A DNA stretch of 64,000 nt from a virus, in IMG/VR virus record IMGVR_UViG_3300013131_002268, positions 1-64,000 of that record. One strand, given 5' to 3'. This document shows, one piece after another, positions 25,284 through 33,626 of the stretch (within the stretch, counting starts at the first letter, position 1; the number at the start of each line of letters is the position of its first letter). Under the pieces are notes generated by a model, which was not told the origin of the DNA, did no database searches, and worked only from the letters and a program-made list of their open reading frames with translations. The position numbers were made by a program, and so were the translations under genes.

Positions 25284-26906
25284 ATGAAAAAAAATAACAC
25301 TAAAAATTTTATAATCAAGGCTAAAAAAGTCCATGGTGATAAATACGACTATTCTAAAGTTGACTACAAATTAAATAATATACCAGTCAAAATAATATGC
25401 CCAAAGCATGGTGTGTTTGAAAAGGCCCCCGCAAAACATGTGTCTGGGAAGCAAGGTTGCCCAAAATGTTCAATAGAGCAACAAGTTAGTAGGCAGAAAA
25501 AGGGTTTGGATGCTTTTATTAATGAGGCTAAAGAGATTCATGGTAATAAATATGACTACTCAGAGGTGGAATATATTAATAATAAAACTAAAGTAACAAT
25601 AATTTGTCCAGAACATGGTAAGTTTGAGCAAGCGCCAACTAATCATTTAAGTGGTAAAGGTTGTAAATACTGCGGTGGTACCGCTAAAATGGATACTAAA
25701 CTTTTTATAAAAAAATCTAAAGAGATTTATGGTGACAAATATGATTACTCAAAGGTTAATTACGTTAATAGTGTCACGGATGTTATTATCATATGTCCAG
25801 AGCATGGTGAATTTATAACAACACCAAATAACTTTACGTCTAAAAATCGGGGATGCCCATATTGCGCTTTTAAAATTTTTGATAATCAATCCTTTATAGA
25901 AAAAATGGGTCAAATACATGGTAATACATACGACTATAGTAAAGTTGATTATGTTGATATTAAAACGCCTGTTACAATAATTTGTCCAGAACATGGTGAG
26001 TTTGAATTAAGACCTGATTCACATAGAAACGGTAGTGGTTGTAAAAAATGTTTAAATAGTATATCTAATATTGAAAAAGACATTGTGGCTTTTATTAATT
26101 CTTTTGGGTTTAGTATATTAGAAAATTGTAGGGACATTATTGAACCATACGAATTAGATATTTATCTTCCAAAACATAAATTAGCCATTGAATTCAATGG
26201 TTTATATTGGCATTCTGAATTACATAAAGATAAAGACTATCACTTAAATAAAACCAAAGAGTGTGAAGCTAAAGGTGTTAGATTAATACATATCTTTGAA
26301 GATGAATGGTTATATAAACAGGATATTGTTAAGAGTAGATTAAAGAACTTGTTAGGTATAACTGAAAATAGAATATATGCTAGGAAATGCCAAATTAAAG
26401 AAGTACCTACAAAAGAAAAAACTAACTTCCTTAATGAAAATCACATTCAGGGTGCCGTTGGTAGTAAGGTTAATTTAGGACTTTATTATAATAATGAATT
26501 AGTTAGTATAATGACTTTTGGTAAAAGGGGTGTTATAAAACATAAAAAGACTGAGTTACTTAGATTTTGTAATAAACTTAATACTACTATTGTTGGTGGT
26601 GCTAGTAAATTACTTAAATATTTCATTAGAGAATATAAACCAAAAGAAATTATTAGTTATGCTGATAGAAGGTGGAGTACTGGTAATATGTATGAAACAT
26701 TAGGGTTTAAACTAAAATCAATCAATAAACCATCTTTCACAATTTCTAAAGGTAAAAATAGAGAGAGTAGATTTAAGTATCAAAAACATAAACTTTATGA
26801 TATGGGTTTTGATTTTAATGGTAAAACAGCTGATGAGATATTAAGAGATAATGGTTTATATAAGATTTATGATTGTGGCAGTTATACATATATTTTAAAC
26901 CAATAA
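25284..26906 (+). CDS. homing endonuclease: four zinc-ribbon repeats plus Vsr-like (EDxHD) nuclease
   Basis: The 540-residue protein is on the opposite strand to its neighbours. Residues about 1-250 hold four repeats of the form F-I-x-K-A-K-x-H-G-x-K-Y-D-Y-S-K-V-x-Y, then IICPEHGxFxxxP, then a GC-x-x-C pair, which are likely DNA-binding zinc ribbons. A Vsr-fold nuclease follows: NIEKDIVAFI, YELDIYLPKHKLAIEFNGLY then WHSE, and VRLIHIFEDEW, matching the EDxHD homing family. The C-terminal 150 residues (LGLYYNNELVSIMTFGKRG, SYADRRWSTGNMYETLGFK) form an accessory domain common in such proteins. It is inserted between gp25-like and gp6-like genes and flanked by the 111-bp repeat, as expected for DNA copied in by homing. 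It is intact, so it may be active. Confidence 0.85.
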   Translation: MKKNNTKNFIIKAKKVHGDKYDYSKVDYKLNNIPVKIICPKHGVFEKAPAKHVSGKQGCPKCSIEQQVSRQKKGLDAFINEAKEIHGNKYDYSEVEYINNKTKVTIICPEHGKFEQAPTNHLSGKGCKYCGGTAKMDTKLFIKKSKEIYGDKYDYSKVNYVNSVTDVIIICPEHGEFITTPNNFTSKNRGCPYCAFKIFDNQSFIEKMGQIHGNTYDYSKVDYVDIKTPVTIICPEHGEFELRPDSHRNGSGCKKCLNSISNIEKDIVAFINSFGFSILENCRDIIEPYELDIYLPKHKLAIEFNGLYWHSELHKDKDYHLNKTKECEAKGVRLIHIFEDEWLYKQDIVKSRLKNLLGITENRIYARKCQIKEVPTKEKTNFLNENHIQGAVGSKVNLGLYYNNELVSIMTFGKRGVIKHKKTELLRFCNKLNTTIVGGASKLLKYFIREYKPKEIISYADRRWSTGNMYETLGFKLKSINKPSFTISKGKNRESRFKYQKHKLYDMGFDFNGKTADEILRDNGLYKIYDCGSYTYILNQ

Positions 26907-26989
26907 TGGTAATATTGTCTAACATAGTTAACTAATTCAGTTCTTACGTCAGCAAAGTTTCTAGCAAAATATGGTATTTTTTGTGCCAT
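26882..26989 (-). pseudogene. duplicated 5' fragment of the gp6-like gene
   Basis: From the ATG at 26989 the frame reads MAQKIPYFARNFADVRTELV, as in the live gene. It then leaves the repeat after 27 codons and stops at 26882 inside the endonuclease gene's end. It keeps the leader and TATTTA-containing region, so it may still be transcribed and give a 35-residue peptide. It is a by-product of the endonuclease insertion. Confidence 0.85.
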
Positions 26990-27020
26990 TATAAATTCTT
27001 TAGATATAAATATATTATAA
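26910..27020 (-). repeat. 111-bp direct repeat, second copy
   Basis: This is the partner of 25108-25218, with two synonymous differences. It starts four bases after the endonuclease stop codon and ends 16 bases before the gp25-like stop, so it is the copy still in its original place relative to gp25. Confidence 0.95.
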
Positions 27021-27036
27021 TGGTTAAATTTTGAAA

Positions 27037-27423
27037 TTAAAGATTAATCACAATAACATCATTTTGTTCAAACACATCTTCAGTTACGGTGTAATCTATT
27101 GTCAATGTTACTTTATGTTCATTATTTTCATCTCTATCAACGATAACCTCATTAATTCTTAGGTTTGGTATGTACTTCTTAACGGTTTCATTAATATCAA
27201 ATTTAATATCGGACGATAGTTTAGAATCGTTTTGTTCAAAGATATACTTAAGTAGGTCTGTACCAAAATCTGGCATATATAACCTTTGACCCTTTTGTGT
27301 TAAAAGAAGGTGGAGTAGGTCTGACCTGATAGCTGTTGCATCAGTATTATTTAAATCAAGATAAAACCCTTGATTGCTATCCCTAAATGGATATCTAATA
27401 TTAATATATTTACCTTGTGCCAT
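27037..27423 (-). CDS. baseplate wedge protein gp25-like (GPW/gp25 family)
   Basis: The 128-residue protein starts MAQGKYINIRYPFRDSNQGF and contains DLLHLLLTQKGQRLYMPDFG then TDLLKYIFE, the conserved core of T4 gp25/P2 gpW lysozyme-like baseplate proteins. Its length is typical (T4 gp25 is 132). It forms the inner baseplate contact with gp6-like. It lies just before the gp6-like gene, separated from it only by the inserted endonuclease gene. Upstream is a 162-base leader holding a TATTTA box 6 bases before the ATG and, further off, the end of the cassette array. Confidence 0.9.
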   Translation of the reverse strand: MAQGKYINIRYPFRDSNQGFYLDLNNTDATAIRSDLLHLLLTQKGQRLYMPDFGTDLLKYIFEQNDSKLSSDIKFDINETVKKYIPNLRINEVIVDRDENNEHKVTLTIDYTVTEDVFEQNDVIVINL

Positions 27424-27551
27424 AATAGTAAATATACTGGAACAATAAGTTTTGTAAATTAATATATCAATTATAAGATTTCTTTTTAAATCTTTATATT
27501 TTTTAATAAAATGACCCTGTAACTATATTAAAATCAATAACTTACTAAAAG
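27424..27551. other. AT-rich spacer between cassette array and gp25-like gene
   Basis: No ORF is present. It holds the gp25-like leader (TATTTA at 27429-27434) and is the likely resident phage sequence beyond the array. A GTTATTG sequence on the minus strand near 27534-27540 could be the outer border of the last cassette, but this is uncertain. Confidence 0.4.
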
Positions 27552-27552
27552 G

Positions 27553-27577
27553 TGTGTATATATCCTAGTTATACACA
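27553..27577. repeat. terminal palindrome (element 1) of the cassette array
   Basis: TGTGTATA at 27553-27560 pairs with TATACACA at 27570-27577. On the minus strand the sequence GTATTGTGTATAAC directly follows the stop of the 115-residue cassette gene, and it is complementary to GTTATACACAGTAC at that cassette's other end. The element is much shorter than the other five and may be truncated. Confidence 0.7.
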
Positions 27578-27585
27578 ATACTACA

Positions 27586-27933
27586 TTAGTGTTTCAATTT
27601 AAGTTTGTCTATAAAACTTTTAAAAAATTTCGAGAACCAGTTTTGTTTATTTTTTATTGGTTCAGTGTATGGTACTCCAACAAAATGAAAGTTCCCATTA
27701 TCAAGTTTAAAACCAATAAATGCTTGTTTTCCAGTTGGTGAATCCTCGCTATCTTTTATAGCAAATACTTCAAACGAATGTGCATCATTCGGTATGTATT
27801 GGTTTTCAACTTTATTACCATACTCAGTCAATAAATCAACAAAATCTGGTACTCCTTCCAGTCTATCTACGAAACTTTTCCCTTTACCAAAGTCCCATAT
27901 AAATTTTTCTGCGTTTTCTCTTGTATTTTTCAT
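27586..27933 (-). CDS. cassette gene 5: hypothetical protein
   Basis: The 115-residue protein (MKNTRENAEKFIWDFGKGKS) is of unrecognised family. It has a globular mixed composition with a positively charged end (FFKSFIDKLKLKH) and no membrane segment. It is the last of five small genes in the array. Its unit is bounded by GTTATACACAGTAC and the near-complement GTATTGTGTATAAC. Its leader is AT-rich (TTTTAAAAAATTTAT before the ATG). Cargo of such arrays is often accessory, and no function can be assigned. Confidence 0.6.
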   Translation of the reverse strand: MKNTRENAEKFIWDFGKGKSFVDRLEGVPDFVDLLTEYGNKVENQYIPNDAHSFEVFAIKDSEDSPTGKQAFIGFKLDNGNFHFVGVPYTEPIKNKQNWFSKFFKSFIDKLKLKH

Positions 27934-27997
27934 ATAAATTTTTTAAAAGTTTTTATCCGCTCTTTGTATCAACATTCTACCTTAATAAACCGTACTG

Positions 27998-28053
27998 TGT
28001 ATAACAAATGATAAACAACATTACAACGATTGTTTATCATCAGACGTTAGCAA
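27998..28053. repeat. attC-like palindromic element 2
   Basis: A perfect 11-bp inverted repeat, ATGATAAACAA (28008-28018) and TTGTTTATCAT (28030-28040), is flanked on the plus strand by TGTATAAC (27998-28005) and GTTAGCAA (28046-28053). The AAC and GTT cores match each other, while the outer bases match the far ends of the adjoining cassettes, as in arrays of integron attC sites. Confidence 0.75.
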
Positions 28054-28066
28054 CAATAAAAAATTA

Positions 28067-28333
28067 TTACTGCCGTACTTCGTTGAGAGAGAAAATAACT
28101 TCTGCATCTTTCCAATATCCAAAGTCATAATGTTTTTTATGCCCTTTCTTTTCAAACATAAATTGCCTACACACCCCACCTTTTTTACGTATCTCAATAT
28201 ATTGCATAGTTGGGTAAAATTCAACGCTCATTCCAAGTTCATCTTTATGCCCACACACGTCAATGAAGTTATTTTCTTTATAGTCTGCGGTGATTCGCAT
28301 TCTTTCTTCTGAGTTTAATCTTAATTTTGCCAT
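28067..28333 (-). CDS. cassette gene 4: hypothetical protein
   Basis: The 88-residue protein (MAKLRLNSEERMRITADYKE) is of unrecognised family. It has three cysteines and a His/Lys-rich middle (FEKKGHKKHYDFGYWKDAEV). The unit is bounded by GTTAGCAATCTG on the start side and TTGTTGCTAAC on the end side. The ends are complementary for GTTAGCAA, and after a short mismatch again for TAAAAAATTAT. A shorter overlapping ORF in another frame was judged a shadow because the unit is centred on this one. Confidence 0.6.
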   Translation of the reverse strand: MAKLRLNSEERMRITADYKENNFIDVCGHKDELGMSVEFYPTMQYIEIRKKGGVCRQFMFEKKGHKKHYDFGYWKDAEVIFSLNEVRQ

Positions 28334-28346
28334 AATTTTTTACAGA

Positions 28347-28440
28347 TTGCTAACATGGTGTATAAGCCATGCCAATTAAAAGCCGTAGTAAATTCGATAG
28401 TTCCGAACAGGCACGGCTCATACACCTGTTCCGTTATCGG
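28347..28440. repeat. attC-like palindromic element 3
   Basis: A 17-bp imperfect inverted repeat, GGTGTATAAGCCATGCC (28357-28373) and GGCACGGCTCATACACC (28410-28426), has two mismatches. It is flanked by TTGCTAAC (28347-28354) and GTTATCGG (28433-28440). Its arms share GTATAAGCCA with element 6. The sequence is clearly richer in GC than the flanking phage DNA. Confidence 0.8.
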
Positions 28441-28444
28441 AAAT

Positions 28445-28747
28445 TCATTTTTCTTCCGACTCCTGCTCAGAAGAAGGTTCTTGCTTTTCAAAATCTTCCC
28501 TGATTTTATTTAGTCTTGCAAATTCAGACTCCCAAGCATCCAATGTCATTCCATTTACTGAAATATTTTCAAGTCTATCTCTACCATCACCATCCCAATC
28601 AATTACCACTTCTCTACTACTTCCCATTTGTCCAAGACTTCGTAGTCTTGAAAATAATTCTAATAGCGGTTTTACTGCATCATCAGAACAAGTAAATGAA
28701 ATGACATTTTGAAAAGCAATGTTTGGTGTTTTAAATTTTTGTTCCAT
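28445..28747 (-). CDS. cassette gene 3: hypothetical acidic protein
   Basis: From the ATG at 28747 the product has 100 residues (MEQKFKTPNIAFQNVISFTC). A TTG start at 28768 would add seven. The C-terminus is strongly acidic (KQEPSSEQESEEK), and a possible helical part lies around residues 30-45. The unit's ends are GTTATCGGATAGTTCATTTT and, on the other side, the complement of GTTATCGGAAATTCATTTTT. The family is not recognised. It sits between palindromic elements 3 and 4. Confidence 0.6.
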   Translation of the reverse strand: MEQKFKTPNIAFQNVISFTCSDDAVKPLLELFSRLRSLGQMGSSREVVIDWDGDGRDRLENISVNGMTLDAWESEFARLNKIREDFEKQEPSSEQESEEK

Positions 28748-28787
28748 TTTTAAATTCTTAAATGCCAACCCACGAAAAATGAACTAT

Positions 28788-28886
28788 CCGATAACACGGG
28801 TTTGGCGTAATGCCACCAGATAGTTTGTGCCTAAATTTAAAGTTCTTGCAAGGTGGCACTAACGCCAAGCCCGAAACCGTTGTGTG
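28788..28886. repeat. attC-like palindromic element 4
   Basis: This is the best palindrome of the set: CGGGTTTGGCGTAATGCCAC plus C (28797-28817) against GGTGGCACTAACGCCAAGCC plus CG (28852-28873), with one unpaired extra base and two mismatches. Flanks are CCGATAAC (28788-28795) and GTTGTGTG (28879-28886). An unpaired base in a long stem is also typical of folded attC sites. Confidence 0.85.
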
Positions 28887-28892
28887 TAATAG

Positions 28893-29108
28893 CTACGGTT
28901 TTACTATCTTGCAACTCCATCGCCAAAATTTTTGAAGGCTATCAAACCAAATATCAATTTCATCAGCAACCCAACCCTCTCCACCTAATAAGTGTTGAAT
29001 GTCGTGTTCTTTTGGTTCTAAACCTTCTCCGCTTCCAATGCTTGTACCTTCTGCCCACATTTGGTGTGCTTGGTCAAAAATTTCTGTATGTTCTCTATCT
29101 ACTGTCAT
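28893..29108 (-). CDS. cassette gene 2: small acidic protein
   Basis: The 71-residue protein (MTVDREHTEIFDQAHQMWAE) is of unrecognised family. It is acidic and Trp-rich for its size (five Trp), with no membrane segment. The unit is bounded by GTTGTGTGTAGTAG and the near-complement CTATTACACACAAC. A single small ORF exactly filling the space between two palindromes supports its reality, although it is too short for a confident call. Confidence 0.5.
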   Translation of the reverse strand: MTVDREHTEIFDQAHQMWAEGTSIGSGEGLEPKEHDIQHLLGGEGWVADEIDIWFDSLQKFWRWSCKIVKP

Positions 29109-29131
29109 CTTTCTGTTATTAAACCGCTACT

Positions 29132-29230
29132 ACACACAACAATGTGTATAAGTAATGGCACGTTAAAGTTTGTGGCATAATTCAAAGGTTCGGTGTATGT
29201 GCCACTACCCATACACTCGTCCGTTGTACA
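29132..29230. repeat. attC-like palindromic element 5
   Basis: An 18-bp imperfect inverted repeat, GTGTATAAGTAATGGCAC (29144-29161) and GTGCCACTACCCATACAC (29199-29216), has three mismatches. It is flanked by ACACACAAC (29132-29140) and GTTGTACA (29223-29230). Confidence 0.8.
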
Positions 29231-29235
29231 CAATA

Positions 29236-29649
29236 CTACTCTGTGCCTAACCTTTTAAGTTTCTGCACTAAATGTAAAGCAAGGGTCATATACTCTTTAA
29301 CTTGTTCATTTGTTGGTAGGTCATAATCGTACTCACTAATCGCTTGAAGAGTATCGCAACCACTACAACTACCGTAATAAGTGTCAGTCATTACATAATC
29401 TTCCACACTTGGTTGGTAAGTGTCAGTAGGCACAATAAATATTTGTGTACCTTGATAATCACCATCATCAATTACAGTCATTTTATCCAAAGCCCATCCG
29501 TTATAAGTGGTTGCTTCGGGTATGCACAATTCAAATATCTTCTTTACAATAGCTTCATAGCTATCGTATTCATCTTGTTTTGTCGTTTTGAAATACTCTT
29601 CAAGCTTATGCTTGTTTTCTTCCCATTGCTTTACTAATTCCGTTATCAT
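29236..29649 (-). CDS. cassette gene 1: hypothetical acidic protein
   Basis: The 137-residue protein (MITELVKQWEENKHKLEEYF) has a charged helical start and then YGSCSGCDTLQAISEYDYD in the second half, with a CxxC pair. It is acidic overall and has no signal or membrane segment. The composition suggests an accessory protein of host-genome type, and its family is not recognised. The unit is bounded by GTTGTACACAGTAC and the near-complement GTATTGTGTACAAC. It is the cassette nearest nrdA and would be read from the same direction. Confidence 0.65.
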   Translation of the reverse strand: MITELVKQWEENKHKLEEYFKTTKQDEYDSYEAIVKKIFELCIPEATTYNGWALDKMTVIDDGDYQGTQIFIVPTDTYQPSVEDYVMTDTYYGSCSGCDTLQAISEYDYDLPTNEQVKEYMTLALHLVQKLKRLGTE

Positions 29650-29681
29650 AATTTTATTTTTAATTCATTAAACCCGTACTG

Positions 29682-29737
29682 TGTACAACACTGTATAAGC
29701 CACATTAAAACGATGGCTTATACTCACCGTTATGCAC
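29682..29737. repeat. attC-like palindromic element 6 at the nrdA stop codon
   Basis: A perfect 10-bp inverted repeat, GTATAAGCCA (29693-29702) and TGGCTTATAC (29714-29723), is flanked by TGTACAAC (29682-29689) and GTTATGCAC (29729-29737). The TAA stop codon of the nrdA C-terminal gene (29730-29732 on the minus strand) lies within the right-hand GTTATGC box, so the array begins exactly at the nrdA end. Confidence 0.8.
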
Positions 29738-30344
29738 TACAACCAAAACATTCAAATGGACTATCTTTTGGTTTTTCTGGTGTTTCGTTTATTTTTGACG
29801 TTGCTAACTTTGTATTTGTATCTAATTTTGACTTACTTCTTGTGTAATAAACTCCAGTTTTAAGTCCACCTTTCCAAGCATACATTAAAGCACTGGCAAT
29901 CTTTGAATACTTAGCATCTGAGTGATATACATTTAATGATTGTGATTGGTCAACATATTTATTTCTAATTATTGATAGGTCTAATAATACTTTTTGTGGT
30001 ATCTCCCAAACATCCTTATATCGATATCTAACATCTTCTGGAATTTCCATTATGGTTTGTATACTACCCTTATTAGAAATCACCTTATCAATCATATCAG
30101 AATCCCATAAACCCAATTCAATCAATTCATTTACAAGATACTTATTAACCACTAAGAATTCACCTTGACCAACTCTTCTGGTAAATAGATTAGCTGTAAC
30201 TGGTTCAAATGATTCAAAACTACCTAATAAAATCGCAGAATTATGACTCACACAACCGTTACCTGTTATGTATTCATGAATTTCTGGTACTTCAATGTCC
30301 CATGTTGGTTTAACACCATTTTCTTTAATACTTTTAATCTTCAT
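29730..30344 (-). CDS. nrdA: split-intein C half fused to the C-terminal part of class Ia ribonucleotide reductase alpha
   Basis: The 204-residue product begins with a 35-residue intein C half: KPTWDIEVPEIHEYI is block F, and GNGCVSHN is block G with the terminal His-Asn. Ser36 is the first extein residue. The extein (169 residues, 30239-29733) reads SAILLGSFESFEPVTANLFT then RRVGQGEFLVVN, the normal continuation of the alpha subunit after the PTAS motif, and ends in CFGC, the redox pair re-reduced by thioredoxin. Trans-splicing with the upstream half at 31644-33626 would give 548+169 = 717 residues, a normal alpha length. Its ATG overlaps the endonuclease gene end by 11 bases. Its stop lies in the first cassette palindrome. 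Confidence 0.92.
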   Translation of the reverse strand: MKIKSIKENGVKPTWDIEVPEIHEYITGNGCVSHNSAILLGSFESFEPVTANLFTRRVGQGEFLVVNKYLVNELIELGLWDSDMIDKVISNKGSIQTIMEIPEDVRYRYKDVWEIPQKVLLDLSIIRNKYVDQSQSLNVYHSDAKYSKIASALMYAWKGGLKTGVYYTRSKSKLDTNTKLATSKINETPEKPKDSPFECFGCSA

Positions 30345-31560
30345 ATATTTTATTTTCTTTTAAAAAATTATTTACTCTTTCTTTATTTATTTCTAATTTA
30401 TCTGACGACCACAAAGTTAAAATTTTATACCCATGTTCTTCAGCAATTTTTATTTTATTTTTATCTTTATTTATAAAGTGAATTGCATCTTTTTTACTTC
30501 TTTTATGACACCAGTTTTCCATTAACCAGTCAGTTGAAAACTTCATATAGTTAGGGTGCCATGCTTCTCCATTATATTCTATTATTATTTTTTTACTTTT
30601 AATCGCAAAATCATATAAATATGGTCTTTTAGTATCAACATCATAAATAACTAACTCATAGTTATTTTCAACACCCATTTTAATATCACCAATTTTATAA
30701 CCACAATTAATAAGTTTTTCATAAAAAGGTTTTAAAATCTTTAACGATTCTTTACTAGCCCTACCTATTTTAACAGTTTTACTATTAATTATTTTTTCAT
30801 ATTCTATAGTAGCTTTTTCAACATCACCATCAAACTTTTTAAGAATTTTTTCAAAAGTAGTTTTAATACTTTTTTTCCTTTCTTTTAAAAGTTTATTGGC
30901 TTCGGAAACATTACCATTACATTTTTTTAATGCCCATTTATAACTAGTCGAATCTTTAGATTGTGTATAACTCAACCATTTTTTTTCACCAATTTCTTCC
31001 CCATATTTATCGATAAACTTATCATATGTGTGTTTTGATGTTTCTTGAAATTCTTTGAATTTTTCACTTCCTAATTTTTTACCATGTCTCTTTATAAAAC
31101 CTTTTAATGAAGTTGATTTTTTGGTTTTATATTCTTTAACCTTTAAAATAGATTCATCGTGTGTATAACCTTTTTTAACCCAATAGTCTATTTTATATGG
31201 TGAATTAATAAGTCTTTTTAAATCTTTTTCTTTAAATAGTTTTACACCTAAATCATTACCATATTTTAATTTATAAAATTCTTCATTAACAACAAATTGG
31301 TTATTATTTTTAAATTCGATAAATTTAAAATATCTGGCCATATTAAAATCATCAATTTCATTTAAATCATTTGTTATTTTAGTTAAGGTTAAACCGTTAT
31401 ACTTCATAAGAAGTATTCGATAAAAAAATAACATATTATTGTCAATCTCTTTATTTAAACCTAAAGTTTTTCTAATAATACATAATTCTTCACCATTTAA
31501 GTTTATTTTATCATTCTCTTTTAGGTATTTAGTAATATTTCGTTTGTAATTAAAATTCAT
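30334..31560 (-). CDS. free-standing Vsr-like homing endonuclease inside the fractured nrdA
   Basis: The 408-residue protein lies between the two intein-bearing halves of nrdA. The C-terminal third has a Vsr/EDxHD nuclease core: LYDFAIKSKKIIIEYNGEAW then H, and GYKILTLWSSDKL. Upstream are two similar blocks (GFIKRHGKKLGSEKFKEF and KFIDKYGEEIGEKKWLSY), likely DNA-binding repeats. Fractured phage genes with a split intein and such an endonuclease between the halves are a described arrangement (gp41 and NrdA/NrdJ types from ocean samples). Here it would spread the split-intein unit by cutting intein-free nrdA. The reading frame is intact. It is very Lys/Asn-rich, even by local standards. Confidence 0.85.
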   Translation of the reverse strand: MNFNYKRNITKYLKENDKINLNGEELCIIRKTLGLNKEIDNNMLFFYRILLMKYNGLTLTKITNDLNEIDDFNMARYFKFIEFKNNNQFVVNEEFYKLKYGNDLGVKLFKEKDLKRLINSPYKIDYWVKKGYTHDESILKVKEYKTKKSTSLKGFIKRHGKKLGSEKFKEFQETSKHTYDKFIDKYGEEIGEKKWLSYTQSKDSTSYKWALKKCNGNVSEANKLLKERKKSIKTTFEKILKKFDGDVEKATIEYEKIINSKTVKIGRASKESLKILKPFYEKLINCGYKIGDIKMGVENNYELVIYDVDTKRPYLYDFAIKSKKIIIEYNGEAWHPNYMKFSTDWLMENWCHKRSKKDAIHFINKDKNKIKIAEEHGYKILTLWSSDKLEINKERVNNFLKENKIYED

Positions 31561-31570
31561 ATATAATACG

Positions 31571-31627
31571 TTTTAACAGTTATTATCGTTATTATTATTA
31601 TTATATAAATATATTTAACTGTTAAAA
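31571..31627. repeat. 12-bp inverted repeat around an ATT-rich spacer
   Basis: TTTTAACAGTTA (31571-31582) and TAACTGTTAAAA (31616-31627) are perfect complements separated by 33 mostly A/T bases. It lies in the 83-base gap between the end of the nrdA N half and the endonuclease ATG. It may act as a terminator or attenuator limiting endonuclease expression, or it may be a scar of insertion. Confidence 0.6.
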
Positions 31628-31643
31628 AGTGTTATGCCCACTA

Positions 31644-33626
31644 CTATTTTTCTATAATATCATCATTTTCATTTAACTCATCGGCTCTCAACCAAACCTC
31701 TTTACCATCACGATTAACAAGAAATTTATGATTATGTGTGCATTCAAATATTTCACCATCTTCCATTTCTATTGCTAATGTTTCTACTTTACCGTTATAG
31801 ATAATATTATGTATATCCCTATATCCATATCTACTATCGACCTTTAATGGTACTTTTAATTTAAATACTTGTTGTTCATTTAGTGTTTCAATAGTTTCGT
31901 AATCAATACCGTTCATTTTTAAGATATCTTGATATGATAAAACACCCTTATCAGTCTTGATTTTACCTGTAGAAACAAAACAACTTGCAGTCGGCATTAG
32001 TCCCAATAAAAGGCTATTGTACATTGGTATTGGTTCACCCTTTTCATTTGGTGACCAACCATCAATATATGTTTCACCTCTTGAGTATCTACTACCTTCC
32101 CATGCTGGATAATTCTCACCAGTTTCTTCAGCAATTTTAGAAGATTCAAGTACCGCAGCTTTATACATTGTTTCAAAAATGTCATTATTCCATTGTTTGG
32201 CTTCTTCTGATTCATAAGATATTTTTTTCTTTGCAAAGAAATCAGCCATACCAGCAACACCGATTGCTAATGCTCTTTGGTTAACACCAGCGTTCTTACT
32301 CCATTCATCAGACCACTTATTCTTATCAATAACACGATTTAAAGCTCTAACCAGTACTCTGGTACTTTTAGCTATTGATTTCAAATCTGAATGTTCAGCT
32401 AAATTTAATGATGCTAATGTGCATTGCGGTGTGTAATTTGGTTTGCTTGCTTGAAAAATTTCTATGCAAAGATTACTTTGTTTAATAACACCAATATTGT
32501 CTTGCATGTTTCTTTTATTGGCGTTATCTTTGAACATAACATATGGCTTACCACTTTCCACTTGTGATTTAATTATCGCATCAAATATCTTTTTAGGGTT
32601 AATTGCTTTACCTATACCCAATTCAACAGCTTTATTATACTCCATAACAAATTCGTCACCATATAAGTCATATAGTGGTCTTAAACCAGCTTTTTTAATG
32701 TCGTTTGGACAGAATATATACCAATCTTCCCCTGATTGTAATTTCTCCATGAATAGGTCATTTATTACAACAGCCGTAAACAAATCTCTAGTTCTTAATT
32801 GCTCATCACCAACAGGAAGTGTTAATTCAAGAAAATCAATGATATCTCTATGCCATACTGATAGATACAAAGCACAACTTCCAGAGCGTGAACCTTGCTT
32901 ATAGAATCGCATCTTAGATTGAACCATATCAGCTAACCTTACCACACCACCAGCTTTACCATTAAAAGAACTTACATAACTATCTTTGCTTCTGATTGGG
33001 TCAATAAGTAAACCAATACCAGAACCTTCTTTTGAGGCATAAGAAATCTTTGTTAATGTTTCTTCGATTCCTTCAATAGTGTCAGATTCTAAATGAGTCA
33101 AGTTGCAGCTAATCATACCACCACGTTTTTCTATACCAGCATTGGTATATGTTGGTGTTGCAAAGTTAACCCTTTTTGAATTTAATTCGTCTAATAATTT
33201 TCTCTTTTCAATTGGTGTTTCGGATAAAAATGAAGCTACCCTATTATACATACAAGATGGTAATTCAATTGGTGAATTATCGTCACTCTTCATTGAATAT
33301 TTGGTTAAGAATGTTGTAGCACCAAAAAAGTCATAAGTTAGGTCAACCTCTTGTAATTCTTTACCTATTAGTTTTGATTGTCTACTTAACAATATTCTAC
33401 CACCTAATAATGAATAGTCTGGGTGTTGGATGATTTTATCAGCAGCTTTGAACGCTATAATTTCATCAACCTCAGTGGTTGTTATATTATCAGAAATTAA
33501 TGGTATTACCTCCTGAAATAATAAATCAGGATTAACGTTTAACCCTTTAGATTGGGTTTTAATTCTAGTCAATATTTTGTTTGGTGCAAAATTTTGTTTC
33601 GTACCGTCTCTTTTTACAATTTTCAT
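31644..33626 (-). CDS. nrdA: class Ia ribonucleotide reductase alpha, N-terminal part, fused to split-intein N half
   Basis: The 660-residue product has an ATP-cone at the N-terminus (MKIVKRDGTKQNFAPNKILT). The catalytic domain follows, with ISCNL (first redox Cys), NLCIEIFQ (Asn, thiyl-radical Cys and Glu) and QCTLASLNL (second Cys). The extein ends at residue 548 in LLGLMPTAS. Residue 549 is Cys1 of an intein N half of 112 residues (CFVSTGKIKTDKG ... block B FECTHNHKFLV ... NENDDIIEK), after which the gene stops. The missing C-terminal barrel end and CxxC tail are encoded at 29730-30344. Nucleotide reduction thus depends on trans-splicing. nrdB lies 12 bases upstream. Confidence 0.93.
   Translation of the reverse strand: MKIVKRDGTKQNFAPNKILTRIKTQSKGLNVNPDLLFQEVIPLISDNITTTEVDEIIAFKAADKIIQHPDYSLLGGRILLSRQSKLIGKELQEVDLTYDFFGATTFLTKYSMKSDDNSPIELPSCMYNRVASFLSETPIEKRKLLDELNSKRVNFATPTYTNAGIEKRGGMISCNLTHLESDTIEGIEETLTKISYASKEGSGIGLLIDPIRSKDSYVSSFNGKAGGVVRLADMVQSKMRFYKQGSRSGSCALYLSVWHRDIIDFLELTLPVGDEQLRTRDLFTAVVINDLFMEKLQSGEDWYIFCPNDIKKAGLRPLYDLYGDEFVMEYNKAVELGIGKAINPKKIFDAIIKSQVESGKPYVMFKDNANKRNMQDNIGVIKQSNLCIEIFQASKPNYTPQCTLASLNLAEHSDLKSIAKSTRVLVRALNRVIDKNKWSDEWSKNAGVNQRALAIGVAGMADFFAKKKISYESEEAKQWNNDIFETMYKAAVLESSKIAEETGENYPAWEGSRYSRGETYIDGWSPNEKGEPIPMYNSLLLGLMPTASCFVSTGKIKTDKGVLSYQDILKMNGIDYETIETLNEQQVFKLKVPLKVDSRYGYRDIHNIIYNGKVETLAIEMEDGEIFECTHNHKFLVNRDGKEVWLRADELNENDDIIEK

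Follow-up and report, generated by a model that had tools for sequence, protein, structure and literature searches.

A five-cassette array resembling those of integrons lies in the 64,000-nt stretch of viral DNA analysed here (hereafter the window), which is part of the 92.5-kb IMG/VR record IMGVR_UViG_3300013131_002268. We consider it very probable that this array is one of three belonging to a large tailed phage that carries an integron-like system of its own. This conclusion draws on a longer, 162.5-kb record of the same phage (G001), which has the same arrangement and is 100% identical at the window array, and on a survey of related phages and bacteria. The integron-like interpretation offered by the first-pass annotation, a model's reading of the letters alone, is supported overall: related phages do not share one fixed set of genes at this locus, and a recombinase was found in G001.

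The array consists of five minus-strand open reading frames (ORFs) interleaved with five hairpins, flanked by nrdA and a gp25-like baseplate gene. Each ORF lies between a GTTnnnnn box and an nnnnnAAC box that is the exact reverse complement of the former, and the box pair differs from unit to unit. On the nrdA side, the C-terminal part of the split nrdA (29730..30344; Pfam Ribonuc_red_lgC, 6.8e-36) has its stop codon (GCA TAA C) inside the outer box of the first hairpin, which sets the array boundary. This attC-like hairpin a (29682..29736; TGCATAAC...GTTGTACA) moves together with ORF 5 (29236..29649), which encodes a 137-residue protein of PHROG 12588 (unknown function) and is framed by GTTGTACA at 29689 and TGTACAAC at 29230-29223. 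Hairpin b (29133..29230; TGTACAAC...GTTGTGTG) precedes ORF 4 (28893..29108; 71 residues, boxes GTTGTGTG at 29140 and CACACAAC at 28886-28879); hairpin c (28788..28886; CACACAAC...GTTATCGG) precedes ORF 3 (28445..28747; 100 residues, boxes GTTATCGG at 28795 and CCGATAAC at 28440-28433); hairpin d (28347..28440; CCGATAAC...GTTAGCAA) precedes ORF 2 (28067..28333; 88 residues, boxes GTTAGCAA at 28354 and TTGCTAAC at 28053-28046); and hairpin e (27998..28053; TTGCTAAC...GTTATACA) precedes ORF 1 (27586..27933; 115 residues, boxes GTTATACA at 28005 and TGTATAAC at 27575-27568). The proteins of ORFs 1 to 4 are of unknown function. The array ends in an attI-like site (27556..27575; TGTATAACTAGGATATATAC), which corresponds to the recombinase-proximal end of other arrays and here stands without a recombinase gene, followed by the gp25-like gene (27037..27423; Pfam GPW_gp25, 8e-16); all these features are on the minus strand. 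The ORFs and their five self-complementary, unit-specific box pairs are exactly as the first-pass annotation had given them; it was also right that only the GTT/AAC core pairs within each palindrome, the boxes differing between units, and that one stem carries a single bulged base. Its count of six palindromes holds for five, which are hairpins; the sixth (27552-27575) has no stem and is the attI-like site AACTAGGATATATAC, at which, on the minus strand, the terminal AAC box TGTATAAC is followed by TAGGATATATAC. Pfam and PHROGs gave no function for the five ORFs beyond PHROG 12588, PADLOC, applied to cassette proteins with their relatives among them, gave none for the window ORFs, and an Rfam search of the window hairpins returned no match.

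The five-cassette array is real, with boxes and hairpins far beyond chance: positions 26000-31000 hold 6 hairpin-plus-matching-box units and 8 chained pairs, whereas 200 first-order shuffles of the same region average 0.03 and 0.04 and reach at most 1 and 2. In the window units the box complementarity is exact over 8-10 nt (11-14 of 16), and the five hairpins have 10-19 Watson-Crick pairs, AAC being followed by a spacer of 5-6 nt and GTT preceded by one of 1-3 nt. Boxes complementary within a cassette, in the manner of the R''/R' boxes of integron attC sites, and an imperfect hairpin are found in all five window units and in 173 distinct phage hairpins. The extrahelical bases that attC sites bear in one stem arm are not seen, the bulges being balanced (51 vs 48 over the 173 phage hairpins); the phage hairpins have spacer asymmetry (5/2) in place of protruding bases. 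In 159 of the 173 the better fold is that of the ORF-sense strand, as would be the case if the substrate were one of the two strands, and G.T pairs number 321 vs 64 A.C pairs.

Comparison of the nrdA-gp25 locus among relatives, found through gp25, shows that what lies between these two genes varies. Two of them (L027 and L035) have nrdA and gp25 abutting, ~120-135 nt apart, with no cassettes in between, while a third (L026), whose gp25 is 92% identical, has 1.4 kb of different content between the same two genes. This phage and the window share both outer junctions, namely GTGCATAACGG at the nrdA stop, which is absent from L027, and TATAACTAGrATATATAC on the gp25 side; its hairpins and ORFs differ from those of the window and have their own box pairs, two of which match at 4/5 variable positions as read from the sequence. 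Had all related phages carried the same five genes in the same order, the cassette reading would have failed by the first-pass annotation's own reckoning; with other cassettes in one relative and none in two, it stands. One cassette of L026 (2210-2707, minus strand) has its ORF reversed relative to the others.

Cassettes are also exchanged as whole units between unrelated loci. The relatives of ORF 3 in L020 and L021 retain the hairpin upstream of the ORF (hairpin c of the window) with both flanks different; a further relative of ORF 3 (L024) and those of ORF 1 (L016-L019) were likewise recovered, the former in a cassette. An identical 315-nt unit, delimited by two successive AAC triplets and flanked by unrelated sequence, is present at L114:4598-4912 and L174:1245-1559; a second shared cassette unit is 99.8% identical between L133 and L163; and in L155 an exact 394-nt unit is duplicated, with the second copy abutting the attI motif beside the recombinase. 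These cases therefore define the unit as C-hairpin-GTTbox-ORF-boxAA, that is, a hairpin plus its downstream ORF. The 13 relatives of ORF 5 in viral contigs include some in cassettes with other boxes and some that are ordinary phage genes, and we suggest that cassettes may be made from phage genes. Relatives of the latter kind, without hairpins or boxes, are those in L008, L010, L011, L013 and L014.

A scan of IMG/VR recovered 167 relatives of the recombinase associated with such arrays, 80 of which were fetched for study. The attI-like motif AACTAnnATATATA is present in 65/76 recombinase loci, and in many of them it encloses the last box, which precedes the recombinase start by ~40-55 nt. Of the 42 non-identical loci in which at least 1.5 kb precedes the recombinase, 41 have cassettes in the same sense directly upstream of it and 3 have any downstream, with up to 17 cassettes detected next to one recombinase. 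The frequency of the motif, this linkage and the duplicate in L155 together correspond to the defining arrangement of an integron, in which attI lies beside the recombinase gene and cassettes are inserted there. G001 contains the motif exactly three times (38926, 93943 and 143410), once for each of its three arrays and always at an array end, where 0.75 occurrences would be expected by chance anywhere in its 162.5 kb. The window array sits at a putative attI copy without a recombinase gene, whereas the third array of G001 abuts a tyrosine recombinase gene of 199 codons whose best NCBIfam family is the integron integrase, with a partial match. The guess that an integrase might lie elsewhere in the genome was thus borne out by a damaged gene beside this third array, and intact genes occur commonly among other phages.

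The intact phage recombinases are ~265 residues long and have all the RKHRHY catalytic residues. They score 150-161 bits against the integron integrase model TIGR02249 (cut-off 265), with 4/4 phage and 6/6 genome-scan proteins below the cut-off, and 167-195 bits against the archaeal XerA family of NCBIfam (cut-off 220). In a hidden Markov model alignment to the IntI structure 2a3v they have 33 residues at the I2/patch region vs 81 in IntI (~48 more in IntI). An AlphaFold2 model (mean predicted local distance difference test score 80, low at 245-254; predicted TM-score 0.59) has no extra helix at this region; in structure it matches XerA and IntI best, 4a8e and 5hxy being among the best PDB matches. 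The search for a tyrosine recombinase with the integron-specific patch, which had been proposed as a check, thus found a recombinase that is not, by these alignments and models, a classical IntI: the predicted cognate enzyme has no I2 'patch'. In L164, L173 and L174 the N-terminal domain of the recombinase is swapped for another one (MKILKIFQEKLRYKNYS...), the catalytic domain being nearly unchanged.

Bacterial genomes, mostly of Bacteroidota, encode recombinases 40-54% identical to these, patch-less in those examined, and many have arrays directly downstream. In the ORF-sense orientation the longer spacer is 5' in 170/173 phage hairpins and 3' in 39/47 bacterial hairpins; five of the 8 bacterial exceptions come from L182-L184, beside phage-type recombinases. 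In Arenibacter (L244) an exact 777-nt duplicate, inserted next to the recombinase, is a unit of the classical order, ORF then hairpin. The spacer asymmetry and this duplicate imply that the phage ORFs are inverted relative to the predicted attC polarity and the bacterial ones are not; the other strand of a phage unit reads as a classical cassette (TTbox ... boxAAC-hairpin-G) with the ORF inverted. The integron rule that an ORF lies upstream of its own attC does not hold in the phages, where the hairpin travels with the downstream ORF. In a phylogenetic tree the phage recombinases, whose arrays are upstream, fall into a single supported group (100/90) to which four from metagenome-assembled genomes (MAGs) belong, and the bacterial recombinases with downstream arrays fall outside it, the references being long-branched and the bootstrap rough. 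The phage-type recombinases of L182 (a Methylophaga MAG), L183, L184 and L189 are on contigs binned into bacterial MAGs; L182-L184 are probably phage contigs or prophages, because they have phage-polarity units upstream of the recombinase.

Set beside classical integrons (such as those of Vibrio and class 1), the phage system is alike in its cassette-specific GTT/AAC boxes, hairpin sites, small unknown ORFs and apparent insertion at attI beside a recombinase gene. It differs in the patch, which IntI has and the shorter phage enzyme does not, in the inverted ORFs, and in the hairpins: those of a Vibrio IntI array, taken as a control, combine symmetric spacers with a bulge of 3 nt in one arm, where the phage spacers are 5/2. 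The patch-less systems of Bacteroidota (such as L250 Flavobacterium terrisoli, L244 Arenibacter and L216 Arundinibacter) resemble it in a recombinase of 40-50% identity, asymmetric hairpins and recombinase-adjacent insertion, but have the array downstream of the recombinase, the ORF preceding the hairpin and longer cassettes.

The array might alternatively be an ordinary CALIN (cluster of attC sites lacking an integrase), acquired by the phage as a piece of a host chromosomal integron array with no phage-borne system behind it. The window does present what defines a CALIN, at least 2 attC sites with no integrase nearby: it has five attC-like hairpins, and the 92.5-kb record has no match to the tyrosine recombinase family PF00589. 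Related arrays do occur in Bacteroidota chromosomes, and similar-looking CALINs are known from phages. The first-pass annotation knew of no established description of such an array in a tailed phage of this type; Qi et al. 2023 (PMC9892861) reported 17 integrase-less clusters in phages, IntI1 being active on some, and noted 'divergent directions' for the attC sites in the cluster of Polaribacter phage P12002L, one of them active with IntI1. The units of P12002L, three in number, are of the window type, with the same hairpin type and phage polarity, and encode DNA methyltransferases and a Mom-like gene; the attI-like motif is absent from its array ends, and no recombinase is annotated. However, a host-derived fragment does not account for the opposite ORF polarity in phages and bacteria, with most of the bacterial exceptions lying beside phage-type recombinases, for a supported recombinase clade with arrays upstream, or for cassettes common to several phages, one gene family of which also occurs as plain phage genes; we regard this explanation as improbable. 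The earlier study reported neither a recombinase nor an attI (for the virulent-phage clusters) nor an inversion rule, whereas all three were found here, and the predicted recombinase and putative attI tie such clusters to a phage-specific system. No description of a phage-specific recombinase with attI, or of the inversion, was found in the searched literature, of which preprints and most subscription papers were not part, and these features appear undescribed so far.

Still less probable is a set of Xer/dif-type modules, in which host XerC/XerD shift units at short double-stranded sites. The recombinase has an Xer-like sequence, shares the two-domain build and catalytic residues of XerA/XerC/XerD, and has XerA and IntI as its closest structures; yet it stays under the XerA cut-off and is a dedicated gene at attI, linked to hairpin cassettes rather than to dif. 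Its sites are long variable hairpins sharing AAC/GTT alone rather than conserved 28-bp sites, and a repeat search found no repeat common to the five window hairpins and no ~28-bp dif-like site flanking genes in the array. Terminators or T4-type PeSL (promoter and stem-loop) mobile regulatory cassettes, shuffling genes by homologous recombination, would fit hairpins between genes in a T4-like plastic region whose gene content varies among relatives, but we rejected these readings as highly unlikely, because the boxes are unit-specific, complementary across the ORF and unshared, which leaves no homology for exchange and no recurring similar promoter plus stem-loop, and because the arrays come with a linked recombinase and attI motif.

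Several observations weigh against a phage-borne integron-like system. The recombinase of G001 lacks 207 nt (69 codons) relative to a full-length relative, in which the short repeat TATTCAGTwGGT stands at both ends of this segment, and with it the catalytic Arg and Lys; the second copy, a truncated start (MNEKGCSTLKICEKKFNYLNYSEKT...) after the second attI of G001, is a stub of ~30 residues. A candidate remnant of the recombinase leader downstream of the window attI was rejected, since it aligned no better than shuffles and its similarity beyond the motif is not significant, and a pattern scan of IMG/VR found no exact empty nrdA-attI site. For two of the five window hairpins it is the antisense strand that folds slightly better, and in some relatives of ORF 5 the hairpin is a different one, so that hairpin and ORF are not inseparable. 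Moreover, the host, probably a member of the Bacteroidota, is assigned indirectly, and the activity of the recombinase is deduced from sequence.

Taking together the unit boundaries, attI, linkage, exchange and duplication of cassettes, inverted polarity and missing patch, as read from the genomes, we propose that the ~265-residue recombinase, lacking the IntI patch, would recognise attC-like hairpins folded on single-stranded cassette DNA. It would cut the folded cassette at the G|TT box and join the circular cassette to attI (TATATATnnTAG|TT, top strand) at the start of its own gene, and new cassettes would enter at the recombinase-proximal end of the array. Each would comprise a hairpin and an ORF directed toward the recombinase gene and away from that hairpin, opposite to the classical order. 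Since the ORFs read toward the recombinase gene, they would not be expressed from a classical promoter at attI, and read-through from upstream or cassette promoters would have to serve instead. With both recombinase copies damaged in the window phage, any movement of its arrays would probably depend on a recombinase provided in trans by the host or a co-infecting phage; otherwise the arrays are probably frozen. The phage may benefit through accessory and counter-defence genes.

More broadly, phages and Bacteroidota may have a cassette-capture system of their own that is based on recombination of single-stranded hairpins by a patch-less Xer-like enzyme and whose cassettes were turned around in the phage branch, the system being either a precursor of integrons or an independent invention; we put the chances of this at about even. 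If true, the I2 helix would not be required for integron-type recombination. In the accepted account, IntI moved from double- to single-strand recombination by gaining the I2 helix and docking protruding attC bases (eLife 2020, PMC7790495), and a large I2-less family linked to attC-like arrays without the usual protruding bases makes this account directly testable. IntegronFinder 2.0 (PMC9024848) found hardly any complete integrons in Bacteroidetes; detection based on the IntI patch would score the present systems as CALINs alone, which may explain that result. Phages would gain a dedicated platform for gene capture, many contigs having several cassettes with mostly unknown genes and DNA methyltransferases, from which fast-changing accessory and counter-defence functions could plausibly arise.

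Cassette proteins have a median length of 82 residues, and Pfam searches of 103 dissimilar ones from phages matched only nine families, among them DNA methylases (three proteins), RNA ligase, YopX and ADP-ribosyltransferase. An ARAGORN search of seven loci with arrays returned no tRNAs. The viral status of the contigs follows the IMG/VR assignment, with hallmark genes in part of them: terminase is above cut-off in 13/37 virus records (a fourteenth is below) and tail sheath in 3/30, and G001 has baseplate and nrd genes. A two-box, Bacteroidota-like promoter motif occurs in 10/196 sense hairpins, where shuffles give 2.6 and the antisense strand 4; these are not enough to make promoters inside hairpins a general rule. 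About 21 of 242 distinct phage hairpins share a short form with the near-identical loop TCGTTTTAATG, for example at 29687-29731 and 28003-28048 of the window, and possibly constitute a conserved subtype.

Beside the array, nrdA is split (29730-33626, minus strand). Its N-terminal part (31644-33626) ends in an intein-like segment and its C-terminal part begins with an intein C-terminus (...GNGCVSHNS), with a separate 408-residue ORF (30334-31560) in between; it looks like a fractured gene that has a split intein around a free-standing endonuclease-like ORF. On the other side, an ORF of 540 residues (25284-26906) lies on the plus strand between baseplate genes, opposite to them, and combines treble-clef repeats and an MTES_1575-type nuclease-like region with a Mom-like C-terminus.

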